From the NCBI GenBank assembly GCA_014879945.1, contig JACSRE010000381.1, positions 17,122 to 81,121 of the forward strand: a DNA stretch of 64,000 nucleotides, read 5' to 3'. This document shows positions 9,216 to 25,874 of this stretch, piece after piece (the first letter of the stretch is position 1; the number at the start of each line of letters is the position of its first letter). The notes under the pieces are model-generated. The model made no database searches. It saw nothing but the letters and a program-made list of their open reading frames with translations, and was not told the origin of the DNA. Source of the DNA: Myxococcus sp. (GTDB taxonomy: Bacteria > Myxococcota > Myxococcia > Myxococcales > Myxococcaceae). The translations under genes and the position numbers were made by a program.

Positions 9216-10451
9216 TTAGTAGTTCTCGTGCGCCAGCGAGTCCGACAGGCGCGGGTCGTTGATGGGGACGACCTTGTTCTTGTTGAGGAAGAACCCGAAC
9301 GCCGCCAGGAACACCCCGAGCATGCCGATGAGGGCCGTCGCGTCGAGGTACGAGAGCGCGAAGTGCGGCTCGTGGTGGCCCCCGGTGTGCGCGCCGAAGT
9401 TCGGCATGATGAGCCAGTACATGTCGACCAGGTGCATGAAGAGCATCCACACGCAGCCGACCGCGAGGCCCACCCGGTGGCGCTTCACGTGCCGCGACAC
9501 GAAGTAGAAGAACGGCACGAAGAAGTGCAGCACCGGCAGGGCGTACGACACGTGCTGCCAGCCGCCCGCCATGCGCACGATGTAGAACTCGGTCTCTTCG
9601 GGAATGTTCGCGTACCAGATGAGGATGAACTGGCTGAACGCGATGTAGGCCCAGAAGACGCCGTAGCCGTAGACGTACTTGCCGAGGTCGTGGAAGTGCT
9701 CGGCAGTGATGGCCTTGGTGAGCACGCCCGCGCGCTGCAGCCCCATCGCCACCAGCGCGAGGAAGGCGTGGAACGCGAGGATGGACGCCGCGAAGTAGTA
9801 GATGCCGAAGATGGTCGAGTACCAGTGCGGCTGGAGCGACATCATCCAGTCGATGGCCTGGAAGCTCTGCGAGAGCGCGTAGAGGGCGATGCCCGGCGTG
9901 CTGACCAGCACCAGGCGCTTCACCAGGGCCTCGCGCGCCGCGGGGTTGGTCTCGGTGTCCATCTTGGTCGAGGTGTTGTGGAGCACCCACGCCAGCACGC
10001 TCCAGATGGCGAAGTAGATGGCCGCGCGCCCGAAGAAGGCGCCCGACGAGAGGAACCAGGTCTTGCGCGCGAGGATCTCGTCGATGTGGTCGGCGTGCGT
10101 CCACGGGTAGAGTTCGTGGAAGCCCACCGTCGCGATGGGGATGAAGAGGAACGCGAAGACCGGCAGCGTCACCGCCGCGGTCTCGGCGATGCGGCGCAGC
10201 ACGATGTGCCAGCCCGCCTTCACCGCGTGGTTGATCAGCACCCAGCCGAGGGCGCCGAGCGCGAGCGCGAGCACGCTCTCGAAGGCCCAGAGGTACGCGA
10301 ACATCGCGCGGGCCTTGTTGTCGCCGCCGGCCGAGGCCAGCGTCGCGCCCAGGCCGATGACGGCCATGGCGCCGCCGAGCATGGGCAGCTTCGCCCACAG
10401 GCTCGTCGAAGGAATCGTGATGTCGGTCGGCTTTTCGATGGCGTGGCTCAC
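9216..10451 (-). CDS. actF: Alternative complex III subunit ActF (quinol:cytochrome c oxidoreductase membrane subunit)
   Basis: 411 aa polytopic protein in the act gene order; FQAIDWMMSLQPHWYSTIFGIYYFA characteristic. Confidence 0.9.
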   Translation of the reverse strand: MSHAIEKPTDITIPSTSLWAKLPMLGGAMAVIGLGATLASAGGDNKARAMFAYLWAFESVLALALGALGWVLINHAVKAGWHIVLRRIAETAAVTLPVFAFLFIPIATVGFHELYPWTHADHIDEILARKTWFLSSGAFFGRAAIYFAIWSVLAWVLHNTSTKMDTETNPAAREALVKRLVLVSTPGIALYALSQSFQAIDWMMSLQPHWYSTIFGIYYFAASILAFHAFLALVAMGLQRAGVLTKAITAEHFHDLGKYVYGYGVFWAYIAFSQFILIWYANIPEETEFYIVRMAGGWQHVSYALPVLHFFVPFFYFVSRHVKRHRVGLAVGCVWMLFMHLVDMYWLIMPNFGAHTGGHHEPHFALSYLDATALIGMLGVFLAAFGFFLNKNKVVPINDPRLSDSLAHENY

Positions 10452-10458
10452 GAGGTCC

Positions 10459-11388
10459 TCACTTCAGCGTCTCGAAGTACTTGGCGATGCTCTCGACCTC
10501 GAGGTCGGTCACCACTGCGGGCGGCATCGCCGGGGGGTAGCCGTCGACGACCTTCGCCATCGGCTGCCGAATCGACTCGGCCAGGTACGCCAGGTCGACC
10601 ACCACGTCGCCGGCGCTCGTCTTCTCGGTCTTGCCCCACAGGCCCTTGAACGACGGGCCCACCAGCTTCGAGCCGTCGAGCGAGTGGCAGGCGTTGCAGC
10701 CCTTGTCCTTGTAGAGCTTCTTGCCGAGGTCGGCGCTCGCCTTGGTGAGGTCCACCGCGGGGCCGGAGTCTCCGCCGGGCTCCCACGAGACCGCCGGGTC
10801 CTTCTGGCGCTCGAGGTCGCGCACGTAGGCGACGATGGCCCACCGGTCGGCCACGGGAATCTGCGCCGCGTACGAGGCCATGTTGCCGCCGTTCACGCCC
10901 ACCGCGATGGCCGCGTAGAGCTTGCCGTTCTTGAGCTCCTTCACGCGGTCGCTGTGCATCGAGGGCGGGGGCACCAGCAGGCCCTTGCTGGTGTTCACCA
11001 CGCCGTCGCCGTCGCCGTTGGGGCCGTGGCAGGGGGTGCAGAAGATCTTGAAGCGCTCGTGGCCGCGGGCGATCGCCTCGGCCGTGGGCGCGCCGTCGTC
11101 GCCCTTGATCGAGGCGGGGAACGCGAGCACGAACTCGCCCTTGTCGTCGGTGCCCTTGACGAGGTGGTCGTCGTCGTCGAGCTGACCGATCGCCACCGTG
11201 CCCTCGACGGGCGCCCGCATCGAGCGGCCGTCGGCGAAGAGGCCGGTCGTGTCCTTGCGGTACGACTTCACCTTCTCCTGGGTGTCCATGTTGGGGATGA
11301 GGTGCACCGGCGGCTTGTCGGACTCCCAGCCGCGGCAGCCCGAGAGGCCCACCAGACACACCACTCCGCTCCACAAAAGGTTTCGCAT
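10459..11388 (-). CDS. actE: Alternative complex III cytochrome c subunit (ActE-like, diheme)
   Basis: Two CxxCH sites (CTPCH, CNACH); lipoprotein signal MRNLLWSGVVCLVGLSGC; act gene order. Confidence 0.88.
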   Translation of the reverse strand: MRNLLWSGVVCLVGLSGCRGWESDKPPVHLIPNMDTQEKVKSYRKDTTGLFADGRSMRAPVEGTVAIGQLDDDDHLVKGTDDKGEFVLAFPASIKGDDGAPTAEAIARGHERFKIFCTPCHGPNGDGDGVVNTSKGLLVPPPSMHSDRVKELKNGKLYAAIAVGVNGGNMASYAAQIPVADRWAIVAYVRDLERQKDPAVSWEPGGDSGPAVDLTKASADLGKKLYKDKGCNACHSLDGSKLVGPSFKGLWGKTEKTSAGDVVVDLAYLAESIRQPMAKVVDGYPPAMPPAVVTDLEVESIAKYFETLK

Positions 11389-11395
11389 GTGAACT

Positions 11396-11932
11396 CTAGG
11401 CCTCCAGCTCTTCGACGAGCGTGGCACCGGACTCCTGGAGCAGCGCCTTCGTCTTCTCGCCGTCGAAGCGCGGGTCCTCTGCCTCGATCATGATGAAGAA
11501 CTTGTCGTCGGTGACACGCTCGAACGCCTTCGAGGCGAACGCCGGGTGGTACGGCTGCGGGAGCCCGTTCATGATCCAGTTCGCGAGGAACGCGGTCACG
11601 CAGCTCGAGAGGACCGTCACCTCGTACCAGACGGGCACGAAGGCGGGGATCGAGAACAACGGCTTGCCGCCGACGATCATCGGGTAGGCCCAGCCCATCG
11701 CCCACGCCTGGAAGAAGAGCATGAAGGTCGAGCCGGTGATGCCCATCACCAGCACGGCCCAGGGCAGCTTCGAGTCGGGCACGCCCATCACCTTGTCGAG
11801 GCCGTGCACGGGGAACGGGGTGCACACGTCCCACTTCTCGTAGCCGGCGGCGCGAACCCGGGCCGCGGCGTGCGTCACCGTGGCGGGGTTCTCGTATTGG
11901 GCGAGCAGGCCCCAGTGCTTCTTGTCGCTCAT
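11396..11932 (-). CDS. actD: Alternative complex III subunit ActD (DUF3341-like)
   Basis: [43 protein letters not shown]; two TM segments; act gene order. Confidence 0.92.
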
Positions 11933-13470
11933 GAGTGACCTCCGGTGCCGGCGACCGCCGTCGAGGGAATCGCGCCACCGATGGCGGGCGCCTCGGTGTG
12001 GTGGTGCGCCGCCTCGTGCGCGTGGCCAGCGGCGTGGCCGTAGCCTTCCCAGTGCGGGTTGGCCTGCGCCATCACGCCCTTCACCTCGCTCATGGCGATG
12101 ACGGGGAAGAAGCGCACGAAGAGCAGGAAGAGGAAGAAGAAGAGGCCGAAGGTGCCCAACAGGAAGAGCACCTCGGTGACGGGCACGAAGTAGTCCCAGC
12201 TCGAGGGCAGCGCGTCGCGGTGCAGCGAGGTCACCGTGATGACGAAGCGCTCGAACCACATGCCGATGTTCACGAAGATCGACAGGACGAAGGTGATCTT
12301 CACGTTGGTGCGGATCTTCTTGAACCAGTACAGCTGCGGGGTGATCACGTTGCAGCTCATCATGATCCAGTAGGCCCACCAGTACGGCCCACCCATGCGG
12401 TTGAGGAACGTGAAGCCCTCGTATTGGTTGCCCGAGTAGGCCGCCATGAAGAACTCCATGCCGTACGCGTACCCGACGAGCGAGCCGGTCAGCAGGATGA
12501 TCTTGTTCATGTTCTCGATGTGACGAATCGTGATCACGTCTTTGAGGCCCAGCCACTGGCGCGCCGGAATCGCGAGCGTCAGCACCATCGCGAAGCCCGA
12601 GAAGATGGCGCCGGCCACGAAGTACGGCGGGAAGATGGTGGTGTGCCAGCCGGGCAGCTGCGAGACGGCGAAGTCGAACGAGACGATGGTGTGCACCGAG
12701 AGCACCAGCGGCGCCGAGAAGGCCGCGAGGATCTGGTAGGCCTTCTCGTAGGTCACCCAGTGGCGCATCGAGCCGCGCCAGCCCAGCGACAAGAAGCCGT
12801 AGAAGAAGCGGCGCCACTTGATGGTGGTGCGGTCACGCAGGGTCGCGAAGTCGGGAACCAGGCCGGTGTACCAGAAGAGGATCGACACCAGCGCGTAGGT
12901 GTTGACGGCCCACACGTCCCACTCCAGCGGGCTGCGGAAGTTCGGCCACAGGCCCATCTGGTTGGGAATCGGGAACAGGTAGTAGTCCATCCAGATGCGG
13001 CCGGTGTGCAGCGCCACGCACGAGCCGGCGCAGGCGACGGCGAAGATGGTCATCGCCTCGGCGAACCGGTTGATGCTGGTGCGCCACTTCTGGCGGAACA
13101 GGTAGAGCACCGCCGAGATGAGCGTGCCGGCGTGGCCGATGCCGACCCAGAAGACGAAGTTGACGATGTCCCACGCCCAGGCGACCGGGGTGTTGTTGCC
13201 CCAGATGCCGGGGCCTTCCCAGAAGAGGTAGCCGACGTAGCCGCCGAACATTGCCGCGCCGGCGGCCGCGAGCGCGATGCCGAACTTCAGCCCGTTGGGC
13301 GTCTGGAGGATCGGCGCCTCGTTCACCTTGCAGACCATCTCGGTGATCGCGTGGAAGTCGTGGTCACCACGAACCAGTGGCTCACGGCCCTCGATGACCT
13401 CGGGCAACACCACGTCGCCCCGCAGGTTCGGGTCGTCAGGCAGCGTCATGGTGGCAGTTGGCGTTCCCAT
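11929..13470 (-). CDS. actC: Alternative complex III subunit ActC (NrfD-like)
   Basis: About 10 TM NrfD-type protein; start ATG at 13468-13470; act gene order. Confidence 0.93.
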
Positions 13471-16400
13471 CAGGCCAGCTCCTCGTTCTCGTTGCGCACG
13501 CGGGCGAGGTAGCTGGTGCGTGGGCGAATGTTGAGTTCCTGCAGCATCTCGTAGTTGCGCTCGCTGTTCTTGAGCGCGAACACCTTCGACTTCTCGTCGT
13601 TGATGTTGCCGAAGGTGATGGCGCTGGTCGGGCACGCCTGCTGGCACGCCGGAATCACCGCGCCGTCAGGCAGCGCCTTGCGGTCGTGGCCCTGGCGCTT
13701 GGCGGCGATCTTGGCGTCGTCGATGCGCTGCGCGCAGTACGAGCACTTCTCCATCACGCCGCGGTACCGCACCGACACGTCGGGGTTGCGCTGGAGCTTG
13801 AGCGTCTTCATGCGCTCCTTCCAGTACGGCTCGACGTAGACGTTCCCGGTGTGGGTGTAGTCGAGGTAGTTGAAGCGCCGCACCTTGTAGGGGCAGTTGT
13901 TGGCGCAGTACCGGGTGCCGATGCACCGGTTGTAGGCCATCGTGTTGGTGCCCTCTTCGTCGTGCACCGTGGCCGAGACCGGGCACACCGGCTCGCAGGG
14001 CGCGTTCTCGCAGTGCATGCACGCCACCGGCTGGTGCACCGCCGCGGGCGCGTCCACGTCACCGGTGAAGTAGCGGTCGATGCGAATCCAGTGGAGCTCG
14101 CGGCCCAGCAGCACCTGCTCGCGGCCCACCACCGCGATGTTGTTCTCGGACTGGCAGGCGATCGCGCAGTAGTTGCAGCCGATGCAGGCCGACAGGTCGA
14201 TGACCATGCCCCACTGCTGGCCTTCGTAGACGATCTCGCTGTGCGGCTGAATGGGCTTCGAGGGCCGGTTCTTCGGCGTGCCGAGCGTCACCAGGTTCGC
14301 GGGCATGTCGCCCTTGTGCGCGAAGCTCTCGTCCTTCGCGTAGGCGGCGGCGGTGGCCGAGCGGAACAGCGGGCGGTCGCCCAGGCCCAGCTTGCGGTGC
14401 TCCGAGTCGGCGCTCTCGTCGAGCATCTTGACGAAGGTGAGCTCCTTCAGCGGCGACGCGGGCACCGAGAAGTGGTCTTGCGTCGACGCCAGCACCTGCG
14501 TCTTGCCCGTCTTCGTCACCTTCACGCCGGTGACGACGTTGAGGGCGCCCTCGAGCAGCGGGGTGACGTCGGCGCCGATGCCCTTCGAGACCTCTCCCTG
14601 CGCGCGGCCGTAGCCGGCGGTCATCACCAGGGTGGCGGGCGCGAGGCCGGGGAGCACGAAGGTCGGCGTGGTGATGGAGCGGCCGTTGACCGTCACCTCG
14701 ACGACGTCGGCGGTGTAGCCGTTGCGCACCACCGCGCTCTCGATGCCCAGCTCTTTGGCGACCGACGGCGCCATCAGCAGCGCGTTGTCCCAGCAGAGCT
14801 TCGACATGGTGTCGGGCAGCTCCATCACCCACGAGGTGTTGGTGAGGCGGCCGTCTTTGGCGTGCCCGTGCACCGCGACCAGCTCGTAGTTGTCCTTGCC
14901 CGGGGTGACGCTGGTGAGCGCGCCCACGGCGGTGGCGATCTCAGCCACCTTCGCCGCGGCGGGCGCCGGGGTTCTGGCGGTGCCGGCGATGACGCCGTCG
15001 TGCAGGGCCTTGCGCCAGGCCTTCTCGGCGGTGAGCTTGCCGCCCTCGGCGCGCCAGGTCGCCTCGACGAGCTTCTTGTCGCCCGTCTCGGCTTCGCCCG
15101 CCAGCTGCGCCAGCAGGGTGATGAGGGGGCGGCCCGAGAACAGCGGGAGGATGATGGGCTGCACCAGGCTGACGGTGCCGTCCCAGCCCTCGGCGTCGCC
15201 CCACGACTCGAGGAAGTGGGCCAGCGGCGCGTGCCAGGTGGCCTTGAGGCCCGTCTCTTCGGGGAAGAGGCCGAGGTGCACCGTCGTCTTGGCCTTCGCG
15301 AGCGCCTCGCCGAACTTCAGCGCGCCGGGCGCGGTGTAGACCGGGTTGACGTCGGCCAACACCACGGTGTCGATGGCGCCTTCGCCCAGCGCCTTGGTGA
15401 GCGCGGCGAGCTGCTCGTACTGGCTGGGGTGGTCGAGGGCCTCGCCCATCGAGACCGTCTGGCCGCCGCCGAGCGCCGCGTTGATGGCGAAGGCCAGCGC
15501 GTGCACCGCCGGCGGCTGGCGCTCACCGACGAACAGCGTGGCGGCGCCCTTGTTGGCGGCGAGGTCTTTGGCGAGCGCCGCGACGAACCGGGTCACGTTC
15601 GCGGGCAGCGCGGCGCCTTCGAGCGCGCCGAGCGCGCCGAGGTCGACGCCGTTGGCGGCGAGGGCCTTCGCGAGCGCCTTCATCACGTCGACGCCCTGGC
15701 TCGAGGCCACCCGCACGCGGTGGTCGGCGTTGGTGCCGGTCGCGCTGAAGGTCGACTCGGCGACGTACAGGCGCTGCATCTTCGCGAGGTCATCGCGGGT
15801 GTGCACGGCGCGCGTCGCCCCGAACTGGCGGGCCAGCTTGAGGTGGTCGGGGCCCGAGACGAGGAAGTCGGAGTCGAGGGCGAAGATGATCTTCGTCGTC
15901 GAGAGGTCGGCGTGCACGCGCGCGCCGGGCCCGAACGCCAGGTGGGCGCCCAGGTGCTGCTGGTCGGGGGCGAGCGGGTCCCACCGGACGATCTTCGCCT
16001 GCGGCAGCTTCGTGGCGACGAGCTTGAGCAGGCGCTCGGCGGTCGGCCCGAGCTCGTCTTCGACGACGATGGCCAGGCCCGCGCCCTGGGCGCCGGCGAA
16101 CTTCGTGGACAGCTCCTTGAAGAACGCGTCGAACTTCTCCCAGGTGCTGGCCTGGCCGCCCTGCATCGGGGCGCGCGCGCGCTCCGGGTCGTACAGGCGC
16201 AGCACCTCGGCCTGGGCCCAGATGTCAGAGGCGCCCAGCGAGCTGGGGTGGTTCGGGTTGCCCTCGATCTTGGTGGGCCGGCCGCCGTTGGCCTCGACGA
16301 TGAGGCCCACCGCGCCCTCGGACCGCTGCATCGCGGTCGAGTAGTACATGCGCACGCCCGGCACGACCTGCTCCGGCTGCTGCACGAAGGGCAGGATCTC

Positions 16401-16640
16401 GTCGACCGGGCGGCGAACCTGCAGGTTCTCGCAGCCGGCCAGCGCGCCCAGCGACATCGCGGCGGCGCCGATCTTCAGCGCGTCGCGGCGGTTGAAGCCC
16501 TCGGGCGTCAGCCCGTTGGGGAACTCGTCCTCCATCTGCTTCTTGAGGAGCTCGTCGCCTTCTTTGTGCGCGACGGAACGCCAGTACGTCGGCGGCTCGT
16601 TCATCTGGTCGCGAAGCGGGGCGTAGGGGTCTTTCTTCAT
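13470..16640 (-). CDS. actB: Alternative complex III subunit ActB (molybdopterin-oxidoreductase-like plus Fe-S ferredoxin domain)
   Basis: 1056 aa; [13 protein letters not shown]-terminus; [51 protein letters not shown] and CSYCAQRI cluster motifs. Confidence 0.95.
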
Positions 16641-16676
16641 GGCGGTGTCGTTCTTTCGAAGAAGACGAAGAGTCGG

Positions 16677-17399
16677 TCAGCGGTGGCAGCCGGAGCAGCC
16701 GGCGGTCGCGTAGGTGAGCAGCTCACCGTTGGGGCCGCGCTTGGCGGCGGCCGAGAGGCTGCCCGGCGGGTTGAGCGTGGCGGCGATCTTCGTCGCCTTC
16801 TCGTTCCAGGCCAGGTCGCCCTTCCAGCCCATCGCGGTCAGCTGCTCCACCGGGCGCAGGTTGGGCGCGGGGTCGGAGTGACAGTCGAGGCACCAGGCCA
16901 TCGACAGCGGCTGGGTCTGCTTGACGACCTCCATGGTGTCGATGCGGCCGTGGCAGGTCTCGCAGCCGACCGCGGCGCGGTTCTCACCGACGCCGACGCC
17001 CATGTGGGCCGAGTGGTTGAAGTAGGCGAAGTCGGGCGTCTTGTGAATGCGCACCCACTCGACCGACTTGCCGGTCTTCCACGACTCGCGCAGGGCCTCG
17101 AGCTTGGGCGAGTCCTTCTTCACCTGCGCGTGGCAGTTCATGCACGTCTGCGTCGGGGGCACGCCGCCGTGCGGGCCGCGCTCCACGTAGGCGTGGCAGT
17201 AGCGACAGTCGATCTGCATGTCGCCCGCGTGCAGCTTGTGGCTGTACTCGATGGGCTGCGTCGGTTTGTAGCCGACGTCGGTGTGCCACGGAGAGCCCCA
17301 CCAGTAGAGGGCAAACGTGACGACACCGCCGCCGACGAGCGTTCCGACGAGCGCCAGGGCTGGGGTCTGGTTCCACCACTTCGGGAAGATCTGGGCCAT
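16677..17399 (-). CDS. actA: Alternative complex III pentaheme cytochrome ActA
   Basis: Five CxxCH motifs (CRYCH, CMNCH, CETCH, CLDCH, CSGCH); N-terminal TM. Confidence 0.95.
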   Translation of the reverse strand: MAQIFPKWWNQTPALALVGTLVGGGVVTFALYWWGSPWHTDVGYKPTQPIEYSHKLHAGDMQIDCRYCHAYVERGPHGGVPPTQTCMNCHAQVKKDSPKLEALRESWKTGKSVEWVRIHKTPDFAYFNHSAHMGVGVGENRAAVGCETCHGRIDTMEVVKQTQPLSMAWCLDCHSDPAPNLRPVEQLTAMGWKGDLAWNEKATKIAATLNPPGSLSAAAKRGPNGELLTYATAGCSGCHR

Positions 17400-17625: not shown

Positions 17626-18258
17626 TCAAGGGTTGGGGCCGAACCGCGCGAGCAGGCGGGCGGCGTTGATGGCGTTGCCCCGGCCCGCGGAGTCGTCTCT
17701 CCAGAAGTCCCGCACCTGGCCCTCCTGGTCGACGAGCGCGAACGCGGGCAGCCCCATCTGCTCGCTCACCGTGGTGCCCGCGTCGGAGCCGCCGCGCAGC
17801 GCCCACGACGCATGGAACGAGGAGAGGAGCGGGGCGAGGGCCTCGTCGGCGCCGGTGACGACGTGCCAGCGGCCGGCGGCGAGCCCCTTCAGCGCGGGCG
17901 CAGCCGAGTCGCGCGCCACCGTGACGAAGTGAACCTTGTCGCCGAGGTCGTCGGTGTGGTCGAGGCCGCGGCCGAACGCGCGCTGGGCCTCGACGCAGGC
18001 GGCCTCACACGGGCCGTTGGCGAAGAACGTGAGGAAGACCTTGCCCGAGAGCTCCGCCGAGCCGAAGGGCCGCGCGTCGTCGACCGTTGAGAGCTGCCAG
18101 GCCCCCAGCGGCGCGATGGCCGGCGGCGCCTTCAGGAAGCGGCGCTGCATGAACGGCAGCACCGTCAGCACCACCGCGCCGAGCAGGAAGGCGATGACGA
18201 ACGGGCTCTTCCACCACGGCCCGCGGGCCTCGGGTTCTGCGGCCGACTCAGTCGTCAC
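17626..18258 (-). CDS. SCO1/SenC-like thioredoxin-fold membrane protein
   Basis: N-terminal TM, FLTFFANGPCEAACVEAQ (CxxxC) in SCO-like context within the oxidase operon. Confidence 0.65.
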   Translation of the reverse strand: MTTESAAEPEARGPWWKSPFVIAFLLGAVVLTVLPFMQRRFLKAPPAIAPLGAWQLSTVDDARPFGSAELSGKVFLTFFANGPCEAACVEAQRAFGRGLDHTDDLGDKVHFVTVARDSAAPALKGLAAGRWHVVTGADEALAPLLSSFHASWALRGGSDAGTTVSEQMGLPAFALVDQEGQVRDFWRDDSAGRGNAINAARLLARFGPNP

Positions 18259-18625
18259 CCTTCTTGCCCTTGCCCTTCTTCTTGCCGCGGTGCGCTTCGA
18301 CCTTCACCTTCTTCCACTTCTTGTACTTCCCGGGCGGCAGCCGCACGAGGGTGACCGGCACGCCCCGGTCCTCCACCACGACCCAGGCCCCGCGGTGGGT
18401 CCTGGTGTGGAACCAGCGGCCGTCGCGGCGGCACCAGTAGAAGCCATCGACGAAGAAGACCTCGTCGTCGAAGTCCTCCACCACCTGCACGCCGGGCTCG
18501 ACCACCACCAGCGCGGGGGGCGCCTGGAAGGTGATGGTCGGCAGCACGACCTCGACCTTCACACCGACCTGCGCCAACGAGCCCAGGGGACTGAGGAGGC
18601 ACACCACGGCAAGCAAGCGCTTCAT
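18248..18625 (-). CDS. Small secreted protein with Lys-rich C-terminus
   Basis: Signal peptide MKRLLAVVCLLSPLGSLAQ; GFYWCRRDGRWFHTRTHRGAWVVV; KKGKGKKGDD tail. Confidence 0.65.
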   Translation of the reverse strand: MKRLLAVVCLLSPLGSLAQVGVKVEVVLPTITFQAPPALVVVEPGVQVVEDFDDEVFFVDGFYWCRRDGRWFHTRTHRGAWVVVEDRGVPVTLVRLPPGKYKKWKKVKVEAHRGKKKGKGKKGDD

Positions 18626-18651: not shown

Positions 18652-18855
18652 TCAGGAAGGGTCTTTCGCTGGCGCGGCGCCCGAGGCCAGCTCGGCGTCA
18701 CGCGCCTTCGAGGCGCGGTACAGCCAGAAGGCCACGCCGCCGATCATCGCCAGCGGCGAGAGCGACACCACGCCCGTCATCGCCAGGTAGGCCCACTCGG
18801 TGTTGTCCTGACCTGCGCCGCACACCGCACACGCCAGCAGCGAGAGCGCCGTCAT
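18652..18855 (-). CDS. Small membrane protein in the oxidase operon
   Basis: MTALSLLACAVCGAGQDNTEWAYLAMTGVVSLSPLAMIGGVAFWLYRASK; start overlaps the stop of the upstream gene. Confidence 0.6.
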   Translation of the reverse strand: MTALSLLACAVCGAGQDNTEWAYLAMTGVVSLSPLAMIGGVAFWLYRASKARDAELASGAAPAKDPS

Positions 18856-19460
18856 CAGAAGTACACCCGCGCGTAGATGATGGGCCACATCAAGACGACG
18901 AAGTACCAGAAGACCTGCACGCCGAAGAAGAGGCCGCCCTTCATGGTGCCCCGCAGCAGCTGCGCCGCCGCCACGGCCAGGCCCCCCAGCGCGGCGATGG
19001 CGTGCAGGCCGTGCATTCCGACGATGAGGTAGAAGAACGCGCCCAGGCGGCTCGAGGTCAGCGTGAGGCCCGCGGCGAGCAGCTGCGCCCACTCGCGGCC
19101 CTGGAGCGCCACGAAGGCCGCGCCCAACACCCACGCGGCGACGACCAACCACTTCGCGACAGGCCGCTTCTTCGCCCACGCCACCTGCGCGCCCAGCAGC
19201 ACGAAGCCCGAGAGCACCAGGGCCACCGTGTTCACCAGCGTCGCGTCCTTCGGCAACATCGGCTGCCCGGGCATCGGCCAGGTGCCGGGCATCGCGCCCG
19301 AGCGGCTGATGGTGAAGGCGCTGATGAGGCCGACGAAGAACATCACCTCGGCCACCGCGAAGATGAGCATGCCCAGCACCGCGTTGGGGACGACGGCGCG
19401 GTTGGCCGTGCGGTCGACCCCGGCCGGCATCACCTCAGGCTGTGCAGTGGCCAGGCTCAT
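18855..19460 (-). CDS. Heme-copper oxidase subunit III family protein (paralog 1)
   Basis: 201 aa; AVAEVMFFVGLISAFTISRSG and GMHGLHAIAALGGLAVAA typical of COX3. Confidence 0.85.
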   Translation of the reverse strand: MSLATAQPEVMPAGVDRTANRAVVPNAVLGMLIFAVAEVMFFVGLISAFTISRSGAMPGTWPMPGQPMLPKDATLVNTVALVLSGFVLLGAQVAWAKKRPVAKWLVVAAWVLGAAFVALQGREWAQLLAAGLTLTSSRLGAFFYLIVGMHGLHAIAALGGLAVAAAQLLRGTMKGGLFFGVQVFWYFVVLMWPIIYARVYF

Positions 19461-19466
19461 GACGTG

Positions 19467-19922
19467 TCAGTGCGCCTCGCCGGGGCTGGCGGCCCCGGGA
19501 GCGGGCGCGCCATGGTCGGCGCCGTGCTCGCCGTGGCCGCCGCCGGCCTTGAGGCCCGCCTCGACGGCCTTCTTGGCGGCCACGTTGTCCCAGTTGGTGC
19601 CCTGGTGCCGGAGCACGTCGGGGCCGACGCCGCCGACCATCACCACCATCAGGGCCAGCATGGTGAGGAGCAGGTAGGCGACGTACTTCTTCTCGACGCC
19701 CAGGTGCATGAAGTTCTTGATGACCAGGTACGCCTTCACCACCGCGATGCCGAAGGCGGTGAAGAGGGTGACGACCCGAATGCCGAGCTCGGGGCCGACC
19801 ACCGACACCACCAGGAGCACCAAAAGGACTCCCCAGATCTTCACGTAGAACGAGTCGGGGTGCGACGCGTGAGCGACCGCGTGGGACCCGGGTGCTGCGG
19901 GAGCGTGTGCCGTGTCAGACAT
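19467..19922 (-). CDS. Cytochrome c oxidase subunit IV family protein
   Basis: KIWGVLLVLLVVSVVGPELGIRVVTLFTAFGIAVVKAYLVIKNFMHLGVEKK typical of prokaryotic COX4. Confidence 0.9.
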   Translation of the reverse strand: MSDTAHAPAAPGSHAVAHASHPDSFYVKIWGVLLVLLVVSVVGPELGIRVVTLFTAFGIAVVKAYLVIKNFMHLGVEKKYVAYLLLTMLALMVVMVGGVGPDVLRHQGTNWDNVAAKKAVEAGLKAGGGHGEHGADHGAPAPGAASPGEAH

Positions 19923-19931
19923 GAGCAGTCC

Positions 19932-20504
19932 TCACTTCGCGATGTAGAGGAGGGGGAAGAGGAAGATCCACACGAGGTCGACGAAGTGCCAGTACAGGCC
20001 CGCGTTCTCGACCCGCTGGAGCTCCTTGCCCTTGGCGGCGTCGGCCGCGACGAACATCATCACGATCATGCCCGCGATGACGTGCAGGCCGTGGATGCCG
20101 GCGGCCGTGTAGTAGAACGACCAGAAGGTGTTCGAGCTGATGGTGTAGCCAGCCTTGATCTCGGCCGTCCACTCGAAGGACTTCACGACGAGGAACGCGG
20201 CGCCACCGCCGATGGTCGCCCACAAGAGCTTCGCGGCGCGCTTGCCGTCACCCCGGCTGGCGGCGTTGTGCGCGAGCACGGCCGACAACGACGAGGTCAG
20301 CAGGATGAACGTGTTGAGCGCACCCTTCCAGGTGCTGGTGTGCATCGACTGGTTGGCCCACTCGGGGTGACCCAGGCGGTGCATGAGGTACGCGCCCAGC
20401 ACGCCGCCGAAGATGACGATTTCAGAGGCGATGAGCCACCACACGGCCAGCCGGCCGGTGGGCATTCCAGTCACTTCACGGGTCGTTGCGATCGGTCGAA
20501 TCAC
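19932..20504 (-). CDS. ctaE: Cytochrome c oxidase subunit III (paralog 2)
   Basis: WWLIASEIVIFGGVLGAYLMHR and AAGIHGLHVIAGMIVM; operon context. Confidence 0.9.
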   Translation of the reverse strand: MIRPIATTREVTGMPTGRLAVWWLIASEIVIFGGVLGAYLMHRLGHPEWANQSMHTSTWKGALNTFILLTSSLSAVLAHNAASRGDGKRAAKLLWATIGGGAAFLVVKSFEWTAEIKAGYTISSNTFWSFYYTAAGIHGLHVIAGMIVMMFVAADAAKGKELQRVENAGLYWHFVDLVWIFLFPLLYIAK

Positions 20505-20515
20505 AAAGGTCTCTT

Positions 20516-22243
20516 TCAGGTCTTCGCGGGCTCTGACGCGGGCTCGGTCTGCGGCCAGTAGTCGTCTTTGCGGTCAGGGTGGCTGTACTCGTAGGGGCCC
20601 CGGTACACGTTGGGCAGCCCCTGCGGGAAGTTGCCGTGCGGCGGCGGCGACGGCGCCTGCCACTCGAGCGTGTTGGCGTTCCACGGGTTCATCGGCGCCT
20701 TCGGCCCGCGGAAGAGCGAGACGAAGAAGTTCACGAGGAAGACCACCTGGAAGGCCAGCAGCACCAGCAGCGAGATGGTGGCGAGAATTCGCAGGTCCTG
20801 CATGCCGGCCTTCATCAGGTCGGGGAAGTGGCGGTAGTCGTAGATGCGGCGGTGGTCGCCACGAATGCCGAGCAGGAACAGCGGAATGAAGATGAAGTTG
20901 AAGGGGATGATGGTGCCCCAGAAGTGCACCTTGCCCCACGTCTCGTTCATCATCTTCCCGAACATCTTGGGGAACCAGTAGGTGATGGCCGCGAACGACC
21001 CGATGAAGGCGATGGGGAAGAACGTGTAGTGGAAGTGCGCCACCACGAAGTACGTGTCGTGGAAGTAGATGTCGGCGCCCGAGGCCCCCAGGAAGATGCC
21101 CGTCACGCCGCCGAGCAGGAACTCGGCGATGAACGCCAGCGCCCACAGCATCGGCGTGGTGAGCCGAATCGAGCCGCCGTAGAGGGTGCCGATGTAGACG
21201 AACACCATCTCGGCGACCGGAATCGAGATGAGCAGCGTGGTGACGCTGAACACGTTCGCCATTCGCGGGTCGATGCCGGCGATGAACTGGTGGTGCGCCC
21301 ACACGAAGAACGAGAGCACGCCGGTGCCGATGGCCGTGTAGAGCACCGTCTTGTACGCGAAGAGCTTCTTGCGCGAGAAGACCGTGATGATCTCGGCGAC
21401 GATGCCCATCGCGGGCAGCAGCACCACGTAGACCTCGGGGTGACCGAAGAACCAGAACAGGTGCTGCCACAGCACCGGGTCGCCGCCCTTGGCCGGGTCG
21501 AAGAAGCCGGTGCCCAGCTGCTGGTCGAACATCAGCATGATCGCGCCGGCGATCAGCGGGCCGACCGAGGCCATGAAGAGGATCGAGGCGATGATGATCA
21601 TCCACACCACGATGGGCACGTCGAACATCTTCATGCCCGGCGCGCGCGAGTTCATCACCGTGGTGACGAAGTTGATGCCGCCCAGCAGGAAGGCCGCGAA
21701 CTCGAGGGCCACCGCGAAGAGCCACATCGACGACCCCAGCCCGGTGAGGCTGTACTCGGCCTTGGCTGACAGCGGCGGGTACGACGTCCAGGCGCCGCCG
21801 AAGGCGCCGCCGGGCACGTAGAACGACGCCACGAGGATGATCGCGCTGATTAGGAACAGCTGGTACGAGAGCCGGTTCAGGCGCGGGAACACCATGTCAT
21901 CGCAGCCGATCATCAGCGGGATGAGGTAGTTGCCGAGCGCGGCGATCAACACCGGCATCGCCACCCAGAAGATCATGACCGAGCCGTGGGTCGTGACGAG
22001 CGCGTTGTAGTCGGTCGCCGTGACGCGGCCGTAGCCCGGCACCGACATGCCCGGAAACGCCAGCTGCATGCGGAACGCGTAGACGGTGAAGCCGCCCACC
22101 AGCGCCATCGCCATGCCGGTGAACAGGTACTGCATGGCGATCATCTTGTGGTCGGTGGACCAGAGGTACTTCTCGACGAAGCCCGGCTCGTGGTGAGCGT
22201 GGGCGTGATCGTGGCCGTGGTCGGCGTGGGCCGCGGTGCTCAT
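20516..22243 (-). CDS. ctaD: Cytochrome c oxidase subunit I
   Basis: 575 aa; WSTDHKMIAMQYLF, HQFIAGIDPRMANVFS, DTYFVVAHFHYT. Confidence 0.98.
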   Translation of the reverse strand: MSTAAHADHGHDHAHAHHEPGFVEKYLWSTDHKMIAMQYLFTGMAMALVGGFTVYAFRMQLAFPGMSVPGYGRVTATDYNALVTTHGSVMIFWVAMPVLIAALGNYLIPLMIGCDDMVFPRLNRLSYQLFLISAIILVASFYVPGGAFGGAWTSYPPLSAKAEYSLTGLGSSMWLFAVALEFAAFLLGGINFVTTVMNSRAPGMKMFDVPIVVWMIIIASILFMASVGPLIAGAIMLMFDQQLGTGFFDPAKGGDPVLWQHLFWFFGHPEVYVVLLPAMGIVAEIITVFSRKKLFAYKTVLYTAIGTGVLSFFVWAHHQFIAGIDPRMANVFSVTTLLISIPVAEMVFVYIGTLYGGSIRLTTPMLWALAFIAEFLLGGVTGIFLGASGADIYFHDTYFVVAHFHYTFFPIAFIGSFAAITYWFPKMFGKMMNETWGKVHFWGTIIPFNFIFIPLFLLGIRGDHRRIYDYRHFPDLMKAGMQDLRILATISLLVLLAFQVVFLVNFFVSLFRGPKAPMNPWNANTLEWQAPSPPPHGNFPQGLPNVYRGPYEYSHPDRKDDYWPQTEPASEPAKT

Positions 22244-22959
22244 GGCATTCCTCCTGCGCTGGTCGGGGGCGTGGTGGGCGCCGCGTCAGCCAGCTTGGGC
22301 GCGTTGGCCTGGTTCCAGAGGCGGTGCGCCGCCTCGGTCTCGATCACGATGCGGGCCGGCATGATGCCGTGGCCGATGCCGCAGATCTCGGTGCACTGAA
22401 TGTCGAACTGGCCGGTCTGGGTGGGCTTGAACCAGCCCTTGATGATGCGACCGGGAATGGCGTCTTGCTTGAGGCGGAACACCGGCACCGAGAAGCTGTG
22501 CAGCACGTCGCGGCTGGTGAGCTCGAAGTGGTAGGTCTTGTTCAGCTCCACGTGGAGCTCGTCCACCGTCGTGATGTCGTCGGCGGTGTCGAGCTTGTTG
22601 TCGGGGCCCGGGTGCACGAACGTCCACGCCCACTGCTGGGCGATGACGCGCACGGTGCTGTTGGCCTCGGGCAGGTTGATCTTCACCTCGTGCCACACCT
22701 TGATGGCCATCACGATGATGAGCACGTCGAACACCAGCGTCGCGTAGTGCGGGAGCGCGACCCACCGCTTCTCGTGCGGCTTCTCGCCCGACACGTACTG
22801 GGCCTTCACGTTCGGCCGCGCCTTGAACTTGAAGATCAGGCCGAAGAAGACCGCCTGCGCCAGCAAGAACCAGAAGCCGACGATCGCGAGAATCAACAGA
22901 ATGACATTGTCGATGTCACCCGCGTAGGTCGATGCAGACTCAACGTACTGGTCGATCAT
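22240..22959 (-). CDS. ctaC: Cytochrome c oxidase subunit II
   Basis: N-terminal TM pair; QWAWTFVHPG, DVLHSFSVPVFRLKQDAIPG, CTEICGIGHGIMPARIVI CuA motif. Confidence 0.97.
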   Translation of the reverse strand: MIDQYVESASTYAGDIDNVILLILAIVGFWFLLAQAVFFGLIFKFKARPNVKAQYVSGEKPHEKRWVALPHYATLVFDVLIIVMAIKVWHEVKINLPEANSTVRVIAQQWAWTFVHPGPDNKLDTADDITTVDELHVELNKTYHFELTSRDVLHSFSVPVFRLKQDAIPGRIIKGWFKPTQTGQFDIQCTEICGIGHGIMPARIVIETEAAHRLWNQANAPKLADAAPTTPPTSAGGMP

Positions 22960-23098: not shown

Positions 23099-23737
23099 CT
23101 AGCGGTTGAAGGTGGAGATGTGAGCGACCACGTTCTTCATGGCCTGCTCATCGGGGAGCGTCATCGACATCGGGCGCATCTGGCCGCCGGTGACGTCGAG
23201 CGGGTTGGCGCCGCGAATGCCGCTCTTGAACTTCTTGAGCTGGCTGACGAGGTACCAGTCGTACTGGCCGGCCAGCGGGGGCGCGTTGAGCGCCTGGTTG
23301 CCCTGGCCCTTGTCGCCGTGACAGGCCAGGCAGGTGGCGTACGAGCCAGCGCCCGCGGCGGCGTCGGCGTCTTTGAGCGACGGGGCCGACTTCACCGGCG
23401 CGAGCGTCGCGACGTAGGCGGCGACGGCCTTGACCTCGCCCTCGTCCATCATCTGGCGCGACATGGGGCGCATGCGCAGGCCCTCGAGATCTTCAGGGTG
23501 GGCGCCGCGGGCGCCGCTGCGGTACTTCGCCAATTGCGCCTCGACGTACCAGGCGGGCAGGCCGGCGATGTTGGGCGCCGCGATGTTCGCCTGCCCGGCG
23601 CCGTTCTCGCCGTGACACGAAGCACAGGCCGCGAAGAGCTCTTTGCCGGGCAGGGTCTTCTTCGCGCCGTCAGGCCTGATGCAGCCCACGGTCGCGAGCC
23701 CCGCGACGAGAAGTGCGAAAGTGATGAGTCGGTGCAT
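23099..23737 (-). CDS. Diheme cytochrome c (cytochrome c4-like)
   Basis: Two CxxCH sites (CASCHGENGAGQ, CLACHGDKGQGN) with internal duplication MRPMS...MRPMS. Confidence 0.92.
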   Translation of the reverse strand: MHRLITFALLVAGLATVGCIRPDGAKKTLPGKELFAACASCHGENGAGQANIAAPNIAGLPAWYVEAQLAKYRSGARGAHPEDLEGLRMRPMSRQMMDEGEVKAVAAYVATLAPVKSAPSLKDADAAAGAGSYATCLACHGDKGQGNQALNAPPLAGQYDWYLVSQLKKFKSGIRGANPLDVTGGQMRPMSMTLPDEQAMKNVVAHISTFNR

Positions 23738-23948: not shown

Positions 23949-25049
23949 TTATCCGCCATCGGGCAGGAACACGCCCGGGGTGGCGGCGAAGCGCTCGAGG
24001 CAGTGCCTGGAGCAGAAGACGTAGCGGTGGCCCTGGTGGGTGTGGGCCAGCGCGTCGGCGGTGGCGCGCACCTTCATGTGGCAGACCGGGTCGACCTCGA
24101 CCGGGACGTCGGAAGTCGGGGTGGGCTCCGCGGGGGTCTCGAGCAGGTACTTCGTCAGCACCAGCAGCGCCTCGCCCGAGAGGTGGTCGTAGGCCGGCAT
24201 GTGGAGCGGGTAGCCGCGGGCGCGCCTGGCGTCGGGGGCGAGCAGCGACTCCTTCACGTAGTCGGCGTCGAAGGTGGTGACGAGCCCGTTGTCGAAGGTG
24301 ACGCGCGAGCCGGCGCGCCCGAGGAGCGCGGGGGCCAGCTCGGGGGCCTCGTGGCAGGTGGCGCAGGACAGCGCGTGGTACAGCTCGACGCCGACCGGGG
24401 CGCCCTGGGGTGCGGGCGGCGCTGGCGCGTTGGTGAGCGTGCGCACGGCGTTCTGGAGCGCCTTGAGGTCTTCCCGGTGCTCGCTGTCGAAGACGCCCCG
24501 CACCATGCCGGCGCCGTCGACCAGCACGAACACCGAGGAGTGGAGGATGGGGTCGAGCTCGCCCGGCTTGTTGGGCTCGGCGGTGACGTGAAAGCCAGCC
24601 GCGACGGCGGGAAGCGTCTTCGCGTCGGTGGCCAGCAGCTGCCAGCGCGTCTCATCGGGCGCCCACTTCTGGGCGTAGGCGGCGAGCACCGCCGGGGTGT
24701 CGTGCTCCGGGTCGACCGAGAACGAGACGAAGCGCACGTCGACGCCGGGGAGCGCGCGCTGCAGCTGCACCAGCTTCGCGGTCAACAGCGGGCAGACGGT
24801 GCGGCAGGTGGTGAAGATGAAGTTGGCGACCCAGACCTTCCCTGTGAGCGAGGGGCCGGTGACGGTGACGCCGTGCTGGTCGGGGAAGGCGAAGGCCGGC
24901 GCGGGGAAGAGCGGGGCCAGGGTCTTCTTCTCGGCGTGCGCGAGCGCCTCGGCCTTCTCGAGCGCGGCCGGCGGGCGCAGCTTGAGGGAGGCCAGGAAGC
25001 CGAGGGTGAAGAGCGCGAGGACGCCGAGGAGCGTGAGCCACTTCGCCAT
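23949..25049 (-). CDS. SCO1 domain - cytochrome c domain - YHS domain fusion protein
   Basis: VANFIFTTCRTVCPLLTAKL (SCO CxxxC), CATCH heme site, VDPVCHMKV...GHRYVFCSRHCLERF (YHS). Confidence 0.9.
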   Translation of the reverse strand: MAKWLTLLGVLALFTLGFLASLKLRPPAALEKAEALAHAEKKTLAPLFPAPAFAFPDQHGVTVTGPSLTGKVWVANFIFTTCRTVCPLLTAKLVQLQRALPGVDVRFVSFSVDPEHDTPAVLAAYAQKWAPDETRWQLLATDAKTLPAVAAGFHVTAEPNKPGELDPILHSSVFVLVDGAGMVRGVFDSEHREDLKALQNAVRTLTNAPAPPAPQGAPVGVELYHALSCATCHEAPELAPALLGRAGSRVTFDNGLVTTFDADYVKESLLAPDARRARGYPLHMPAYDHLSGEALLVLTKYLLETPAEPTPTSDVPVEVDPVCHMKVRATADALAHTHQGHRYVFCSRHCLERFAATPGVFLPDGG

Positions 25050-25097: not shown

Positions 25098-25874
25098 TCA
25101 CCTCACCGGCGCGGTGGGCCCGTCAGGGAGTGGGTGGGGGGCGCCGACGACCTCGAGCAGGCCGAGCCGCTCCGAGGCCACGCAGAGGCCGTAGCCGAGG
25201 TCCACCTCGCCCGCGCGCATCGCGAAGTTGGCGGAGCGGGGCGCGTGGTGGTGGTTGTTCTGGTAGCCCTCGCCGAAGACCAGCCACGCCACCAGCGGGT
25301 TGTTGCGCGAGTCGTCGGGCGTCTCGAAGTTCCGTGAGCCGTACGTGTGGGCGAAGGCGTTCACCATCCACCCCTGCACGGGGTGGGTCATCATGCCCAG
25401 CCAGTAGGCCGCGCCGAGCAGCCACGCGCCGAAGGCGACGCCCAGCACCAGCGCCACGGCGGCGTGGAGCAGGTAGGGCAACGCCCACAGCCCGCGCCGG
25501 TTGAGCCAGCTGACCTCGAAGTCGAGGTCGCGCGAGAGCCTGGTCACCTCGGGCTCCTGGTGGATCAGCCGGGCCAGCACCCGGTTGTACGACTTGAGCT
25601 GCGCGAGCATCAGCGGCAGCAGGCCGTGGTTGCGCGGGCTGTGCGGGTCGAGCGCGGTGTCCGAGTGCTCGTGGTGCAGCCGGTGCATGGTGCTCCAGCC
25701 TTTCGGGTCCAGGCCGGTCACCCAGCTCCCCGTGTGTACGACCATCCACCGAGCAAGCGACCCCAGCTTGACGGCGCCGTGGGTCAACCCGCGGTGATAG
25801 AGCACCGTGATGTAGTAGATGTTGACCATGTACATCGACAGGAAGGTCAGCAGACACAGCGAGAGGTAGAGCAC
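25098..25874 (-). CDS. Acyl-CoA/fatty acid desaturase
   Basis: Histidine boxes HRGLTH, HRLHHEHSD, QNNHHHAP; four TM; GTG start. Confidence 0.93.
   Translation of the reverse strand: MLYLSLCLLTFLSMYMVNIYYITVLYHRGLTHGAVKLGSLARWMVVHTGSWVTGLDPKGWSTMHRLHHEHSDTALDPHSPRNHGLLPLMLAQLKSYNRVLARLIHQEPEVTRLSRDLDFEVSWLNRRGLWALPYLLHAAVALVLGVAFGAWLLGAAYWLGMMTHPVQGWMVNAFAHTYGSRNFETPDDSRNNPLVAWLVFGEGYQNNHHHAPRSANFAMRAGEVDLGYGLCVASERLGLLEVVGAPHPLPDGPTAPVR

Follow-up and report, generated by a model that had tools for sequence, protein, structure and literature searches.

Gene content of the locus

The window, which is the whole stretch of 64,000 nucleotides analyzed here, contains a gene for a protein joining an SCO domain, a c-type haem domain and a YHS domain. 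Read along the minus strand, the order of the genes is as follows.

25098-25874, minus strand: fatty-acid desaturase, preceding the fusion gene
23949-25049, minus strand: SCO - cytochrome c - YHS fusion protein (single ORF, Pfam, AlphaFold)
23099-23737, minus strand: dihaem cytochrome c, the first gene downstream of the fusion (PF00034 in two stretches, E 4e-28)
22240-22959, minus strand: CoxB, CuA subunit II, 239 aa, no cytochrome c domain (PF00116, E 1e-18; no CxxCH)
20516-22243, minus strand: CoxA, oxidase subunit I (PF00115, E 1.9e-130)
19932-20504, minus strand: subunit III-like protein, resembling the second subunit III gene and syntenic in relatives
19467-19922, minus strand: subunit IV-like protein, named by eye, syntenic in relatives
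18855-19460, minus strand: second subunit III (COX3 Pfam match), syntenic in relatives
18248-18625, minus strand: small protein, conserved within the genus (~70% identity), no Pfam match
17626-18258, minus strand: degenerate SCO-like protein, CxxxC kept and copper-binding His missing (PF02630, E 6e-4, under the cut-off; alignment)
9216-17399, minus strand: alternative complex III-type cluster (ActA, B, C, D, E, F; ORFs, named from order and sequence)

Downstream of the fusion gene and in the same orientation, the dihaem cytochrome c gene follows after 211 bp and coxB after approximately 1 kb, and the sequence-only reading was therefore accurate in placing it immediately upstream of the oxidase operon. 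The cluster at 9216-17399 exhibited matches to multihaem cytochrome, Qrc-like Mo/FeS and NrfD-like proteins, and its Act names derive from gene order and homology to Qrc-type subunits. Two haem c sites are present in ActE (10459-11427, minus strand). The His residue of the SCO-like protein encoded at 17626-18258 was missing in all five aligned copies; this protein also has no DPxHDT motif, is conserved beside other cox-linked fusions and is perhaps a thiol reductase partner. This His-less gene at the end of the cox block had been overlooked in the sequence-only reading, as had the continuation into the alternative complex III cluster, the caa3 type of the haem domain and the members of the fusion family that are not linked to cox genes.

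Domain architecture of the fusion protein

The fusion gene is one uninterrupted frame of the minus strand that spans from an ATG at 25049 to a stop at 23949 and encodes 366 aa, with an N-terminus (MAKW) that is the start in close relatives as well. The order of its parts is membrane anchor, SCO, c-type haem and YHS, the predicted anchor being a hydrophobic helix at residues 2-24.

24507-24896, minus strand: SCO domain, residues 52-181, with C82, C86 and H170 (PF02630, E 9.5e-24)
24144-24401, minus strand: c-type haem domain of the caa3 subunit II type, residues 217-302, with CATCH at 229-233 and axial Met284 (PDB 1w2l, invariant columns)
23973-24092, minus strand: YHS domain, residues 320-359, with D320, C323, M325, C346 and C350 (PF04945, E 3e-9)

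The motifs CRTVC, CATCH and DPVCHMKV...CSRHC that had been pointed out earlier are all present, and the claim that one polypeptide combines the three domains was borne out by the single open frame, the Pfam and PDB matches and the same architecture at 20 other loci. The AlphaFold model, calculated with 13 homologues (mean pLDDT 81.7), contains three folded domains besides the N-terminal helix (2-24). A Foldseek search of the PDB with this structure returned SCO structures and thioredoxin-fold proteins only, with 4hde as the best match of the SCO part (E 7e-15), and is thus informative for the SCO domain alone. A PCuAC domain was not found in the fusion protein with Pfam. Compared with the three closest relatives, the SCO, haem and YHS domains gave dN/dS values (Nei-Gojobori) of 0.19-0.48.

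The SCO1-SenC Pfam score of the fusion was 84.3 bits vs a cut-off of 22.8, and BsSco (PDB 1xzo) matched at E 1.4e-22. The copper ligands C82, C86 and H170, which represent the CxxxC and the distal His, were invariant in 13 homologues.

The closest relationship of the haem domain was to caa3 oxidases. The R. marinus caa3 cytochrome c domain (PDB 1w2l) matched at E 4.5e-10 with the single protein and at E 3.1e-24 with the family profile. The Cytochrome_CBB3 Pfam match to residues 220-301 (E 5e-4) scored 20.7 bits, under the family cut-off of 27, and the same model matched all 13 homologues at E <= 0.01 (best 1.5e-8). CATCH and Met284 were invariant, and the spacing from CxxCH to MP was 55 in 21/21 fusions. 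The top matches of a haem-YHS profile in other phyla spanned the haem part only, and these can be considered caa3 subunit II because, in most of them, the frame also contains a CuA motif. The C-terminal haem domain of ActE in the same window also resembles that of the fusion. CxxCH was missing from CoxB in all seven cox-linked loci that were checked, including the window. Since CoxB is without haem c and the haem domain of the fusion is of the caa3 type, the cytochrome c domain of caa3 subunit II here appears to sit on the chaperone of subunit II. Its position on an SCO chaperone suggests that the domain docks at CoxB and hands on electrons, either to the SCO site during assembly or to CuA during respiration. 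A precedent for relocating this domain is provided by F. johnsoniae, where the cytochrome c domain of caa3 subunit IIc is reportedly replaced by one on ActA (PMC5928083).

The YHS ligands were kept in 21 distinct fusion proteins. Their spacing in the window's protein, D-x2-C-x22-C-x3-C, is identical to that in the YHS domain of the M. phlei adenylyl cyclase, a probable copper sensor for which D178, C181, C204 and C208 have been proposed as ligands (PMC4626032); the spacing between the first two Cys was 23 in most of the 21 fusions and ranged from 22 to 28. Because haem c attachment and the anchor put the fusion outside the inner membrane, its YHS domain should face the periplasm, as judged from the sequence. 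The proposal of metal sensing or transfer by this domain was only partly upheld, copper binding being a better-supported reading than sensing. The bound metal could also be another transition metal, or the metal could be structural. Two other frames with YHS in the genome (L185 and L186) continue into TCPMHPEV sequences, recognized by eye, which are known from copper-type ATPases.

Distribution and conservation of the fusion

Full-length homologues of the fusion were detected at 21 loci in 20 of the 195 sampled Myxococcota genomes, one genome containing two. With the exception of G001, which represents another family of the same order, all of these 20 genomes belong to the family of the window's genome, and many sampled members of this family exhibited SCO matches without the fusion. 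Identity to the window's protein ranged from 41 to 84% over the whole length among 13 aligned homologues, and CxxxC, His, CxxCH, MP and D-x2-C-x-M...FC-x3-C were all present in this order in 21 distinct proteins. The fusion is thus real and conserved. An assembly error or frameshift joining separate genes might be suspected since the window's genome consists of 448 contigs and is probably a metagenome assembly; with the same architecture and ligand spacing kept at 20 other independent loci down to ~40% identity, this explanation is excluded for all practical purposes.

A regular expression check of the other SCO loci revealed no further three-domain frame, and a query profile of myxococcal origin did not detect the SCO-haem-YHS form in any of 828 genomes sampled from three other phyla. 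The cytochrome c-YHS pair was similarly not found outside the Myxococcota, where the matches listed for the 828 genomes covered either the haem part or the YHS part, and the two exceptions among them extend beyond the haem domain only via stop codons. A tblastn search of plasmids yielded no match over 80% of the fusion query and one SCO-cytochrome c fusion without YHS.

In a FastTree phylogeny of the 21 fusions, several branches within the main clade contained cox-linked members. When rooted on G001, this tree, whose inner nodes have modest supports, had G001, G116 and G155 as its deepest branches, none of which is known to be cox-linked. The comparison addressing a single origin of all fusions took in only two stand-alone SCO sequences.

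Linkage to oxidase genes and to other SCO genes

The order fusion - dihaem cytochrome c - coxB - coxA was observed in eight genomes including that of the window (the others being G103/L033, L034, which is apparently G162, G102/L035, G077/L036, G049/L088, G159/L190 and G157/L197). In G156 the contig stops after the dihaem gene adjoining the fusion. At nine other fusion loci, the flanks examined contained no cox gene and no constant neighbour. One of these unlinked fusions, that of G001 (L090:7827-10560), is followed by a copper type II monooxygenase gene, whose product may have a haem site and is a candidate alternative copper client, and a stand-alone SCO gene adjoins the cox genes of this genome.

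G159, whose genome is estimated to be 100% complete, has no SCO match other than the fusion, which is located at the cox operon. The window's genome contains only one other SCO match above the cut-off, behind genes for a Cu nitrite reductase-cytochrome c and an FGE-sulfatase protein. Since this second SCO gene adjoins the genes just named, the fusion is left as the SCO protein for the aa3 oxidase of the window. The corresponding locus (L002, G000:C279:10808-14185), where the Cu nitrite reductase with its fused cytochrome c is followed by the FGE-sulfatase-domain protein and then by the stand-alone SCO, could be a cassette for NirK maturation.

No PCuAC was detected in the genome of the window. 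A replacement of PCuAC by the YHS domain is not supported by any contrast between genomes, as PCuAC was missing in 110 of the 117 genomes of the order, with or without the fusion.

Proposed role and alternative explanations

That the fusion serves this aa3 oxidase as its SCO chaperone is well supported, because the protein has a complete copper ligand set and an anchor, is linked to cox genes in eight genomes and is the sole SCO in one genome. These findings agree with the earlier suggestion of copper delivery for CuA assembly. That CuA is served in the cox-linked genomes is the simplest reading, while some unlinked members may have a different copper enzyme as their client, or no client at all, given the nine loci without a cox gene in the examined flanks.

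The more specific proposal, that the fusion assembles CuA in the neighbouring aa3 oxidase while its haem docks at CoxB and exchanges electrons and its YHS domain holds copper, is on balance somewhat favoured. The single N-terminal helix would anchor the protein with all three domains facing the periplasm. Judging from its Asp and three Cys, the YHS domain may bind copper and hold it near the SCO site, where the two Cys and the His of the SCO domain would take it up and then pass it on to CoxB. The haem c domain would dock at CoxB and exchange electrons, with complex III or the dihaem cytochrome c as their most likely source, and these electrons would keep the copper, or the cysteines of SCO and CoxB, reduced. 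The haem could also run the other way and take electrons from SCO, or it could give electrons to CuA; the built-in electron supply that had been suggested earlier is plausible, with donation to CuA as the alternative. A reductant is used in the CuA assembly of B. japonicum (PMC6696091), a role that could fall here to the fused haem or to the SCO-like protein lacking the His. An extended version, to which we assign a low probability, is a self-contained periplasmic CuA assembly machine in which YHS takes up and stores copper in place of a separate PCuAC or Cox17-like donor, SCO inserts it and the caa3-derived haem domain, docked on CoxB, supplies electrons from the quinol-oxidase; if true, oxidase maturation would be coupled to electron flow in its own chain.

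Alternatively, the fusion might be a lasting accessory subunit of the oxidase, in which a detached caa3 cytochrome c feeds CuA from alternative complex III or from the dihaem cytochrome c and the SCO domain is mainly a dock. The caa3 subunit II type of the haem domain, the missing haem c domain of CoxB in all seven checked loci, the alternative complex III cluster coming next in the window and the F. johnsoniae ActA precedent (PMC5928083) are in line with this explanation, but the dihaem cytochrome c encoded between the fusion and coxB could do the electron job, the copper ligands of the SCO domain show full conservation, which a mere dock would not need, and unlinked members exist; we consider it unlikely. 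Even less probable is a function mainly as a redox or copper sensor or as a thiol-disulfide oxidoreductase without copper delivery. SCO proteins can be thiol-disulfide oxidoreductases (PMC6696091), the YHS domain of M. phlei is a probable copper sensor (PMC4626032) and many members of the family are not beside cox genes. However, the copper ligand His is invariant in the fusion, its loss being a feature of the nearby SCO-like protein (17626-18258), the linkage to cox genes extends over eight genomes and a signalling partner domain is missing from the fusion. Finally, the ancestral client might have been a periplasmic copper enzyme other than CuA, making the oxidase link secondary, as the most divergent members (G001, G116 and G155) were not found beside cox genes and the G001 fusion is followed by the copper type II monooxygenase while a stand-alone SCO is positioned at the cox genes. 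We regard this as very improbable, since the monooxygenase neighbour is not conserved at other unlinked loci and cox linkage occurs on several branches of the tree.

Relationship to known systems

The SCO-cytochrome c fusion as such is already known, while the addition of YHS and the caa3-type haem domain appear undescribed; among the papers searched, none describing SCO with YHS was found. An SCO-cytochrome c fusion of P. putida was reportedly studied by Banci et al. in 2011. In Paraburkholderia, the fusion BEI72153.1 consists of SCO followed by a monohaem c domain. Its gene is close to a multicopper oxidase, and in contrast to the myxobacterial fusion it has no YHS domain and its haem domain matches Cytochrom_C (PF00034), the surroundings of the Met ligand being unlike those typical of caa3. 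On a Paraburkholderia megaplasmid, an unannotated SCO-cytochrome c fusion was noted in the vicinity of a multicopper oxidase gene (L189:3851-4783).

For SCO proteins, Cu(I) vs Cu(II) delivery, thiol reductase action and the source of electrons are debated, and a natural fusion of SCO with a copper-binding module and with a haem domain of the type adjoining CuA makes the electron source and the copper donor of SCO testable in one protein. In myxobacterial genomes with several SCO genes, the fusion may also help to pick the one that serves the oxidase.

With B. subtilis BsSco, human SCO1 and B. japonicum ScoI the fusion shares the thioredoxin-like fold, CxxxC with a distant His, the N-terminal anchor and cox linkage (Foldseek TM-score ~0.8-0.85, normalised to the known SCO1/SenC structures), but these three proteins have neither haem nor a YHS domain. 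The caa3 subunit II proteins of R. marinus (1w2l) and T. thermophilus (2yev) possess the same type of haem domain, which is fused to the CuA domain there and to the CuA chaperone in the myxobacterial protein. The M. phlei cyclase resembles the fusion in the Asp and three Cys of its YHS domain, with spacings of 23 and 4 between Cys, yet it is a signalling enzyme, whereas the YHS domain of the fusion is predicted to be periplasmic and is part of an SCO protein; YHS domains are also known from copper-transporting ATPases. A. fulgidus CopZ, in which a redox domain fused to a copper chaperone reduces Cu(II) (PMC7558416), similarly combines both functions in one protein, but it is cytosolic, uses an iron-sulfur cluster instead of haem and has a different chaperone fold. 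The fusion is a new combination of known parts and not a new kind of system.
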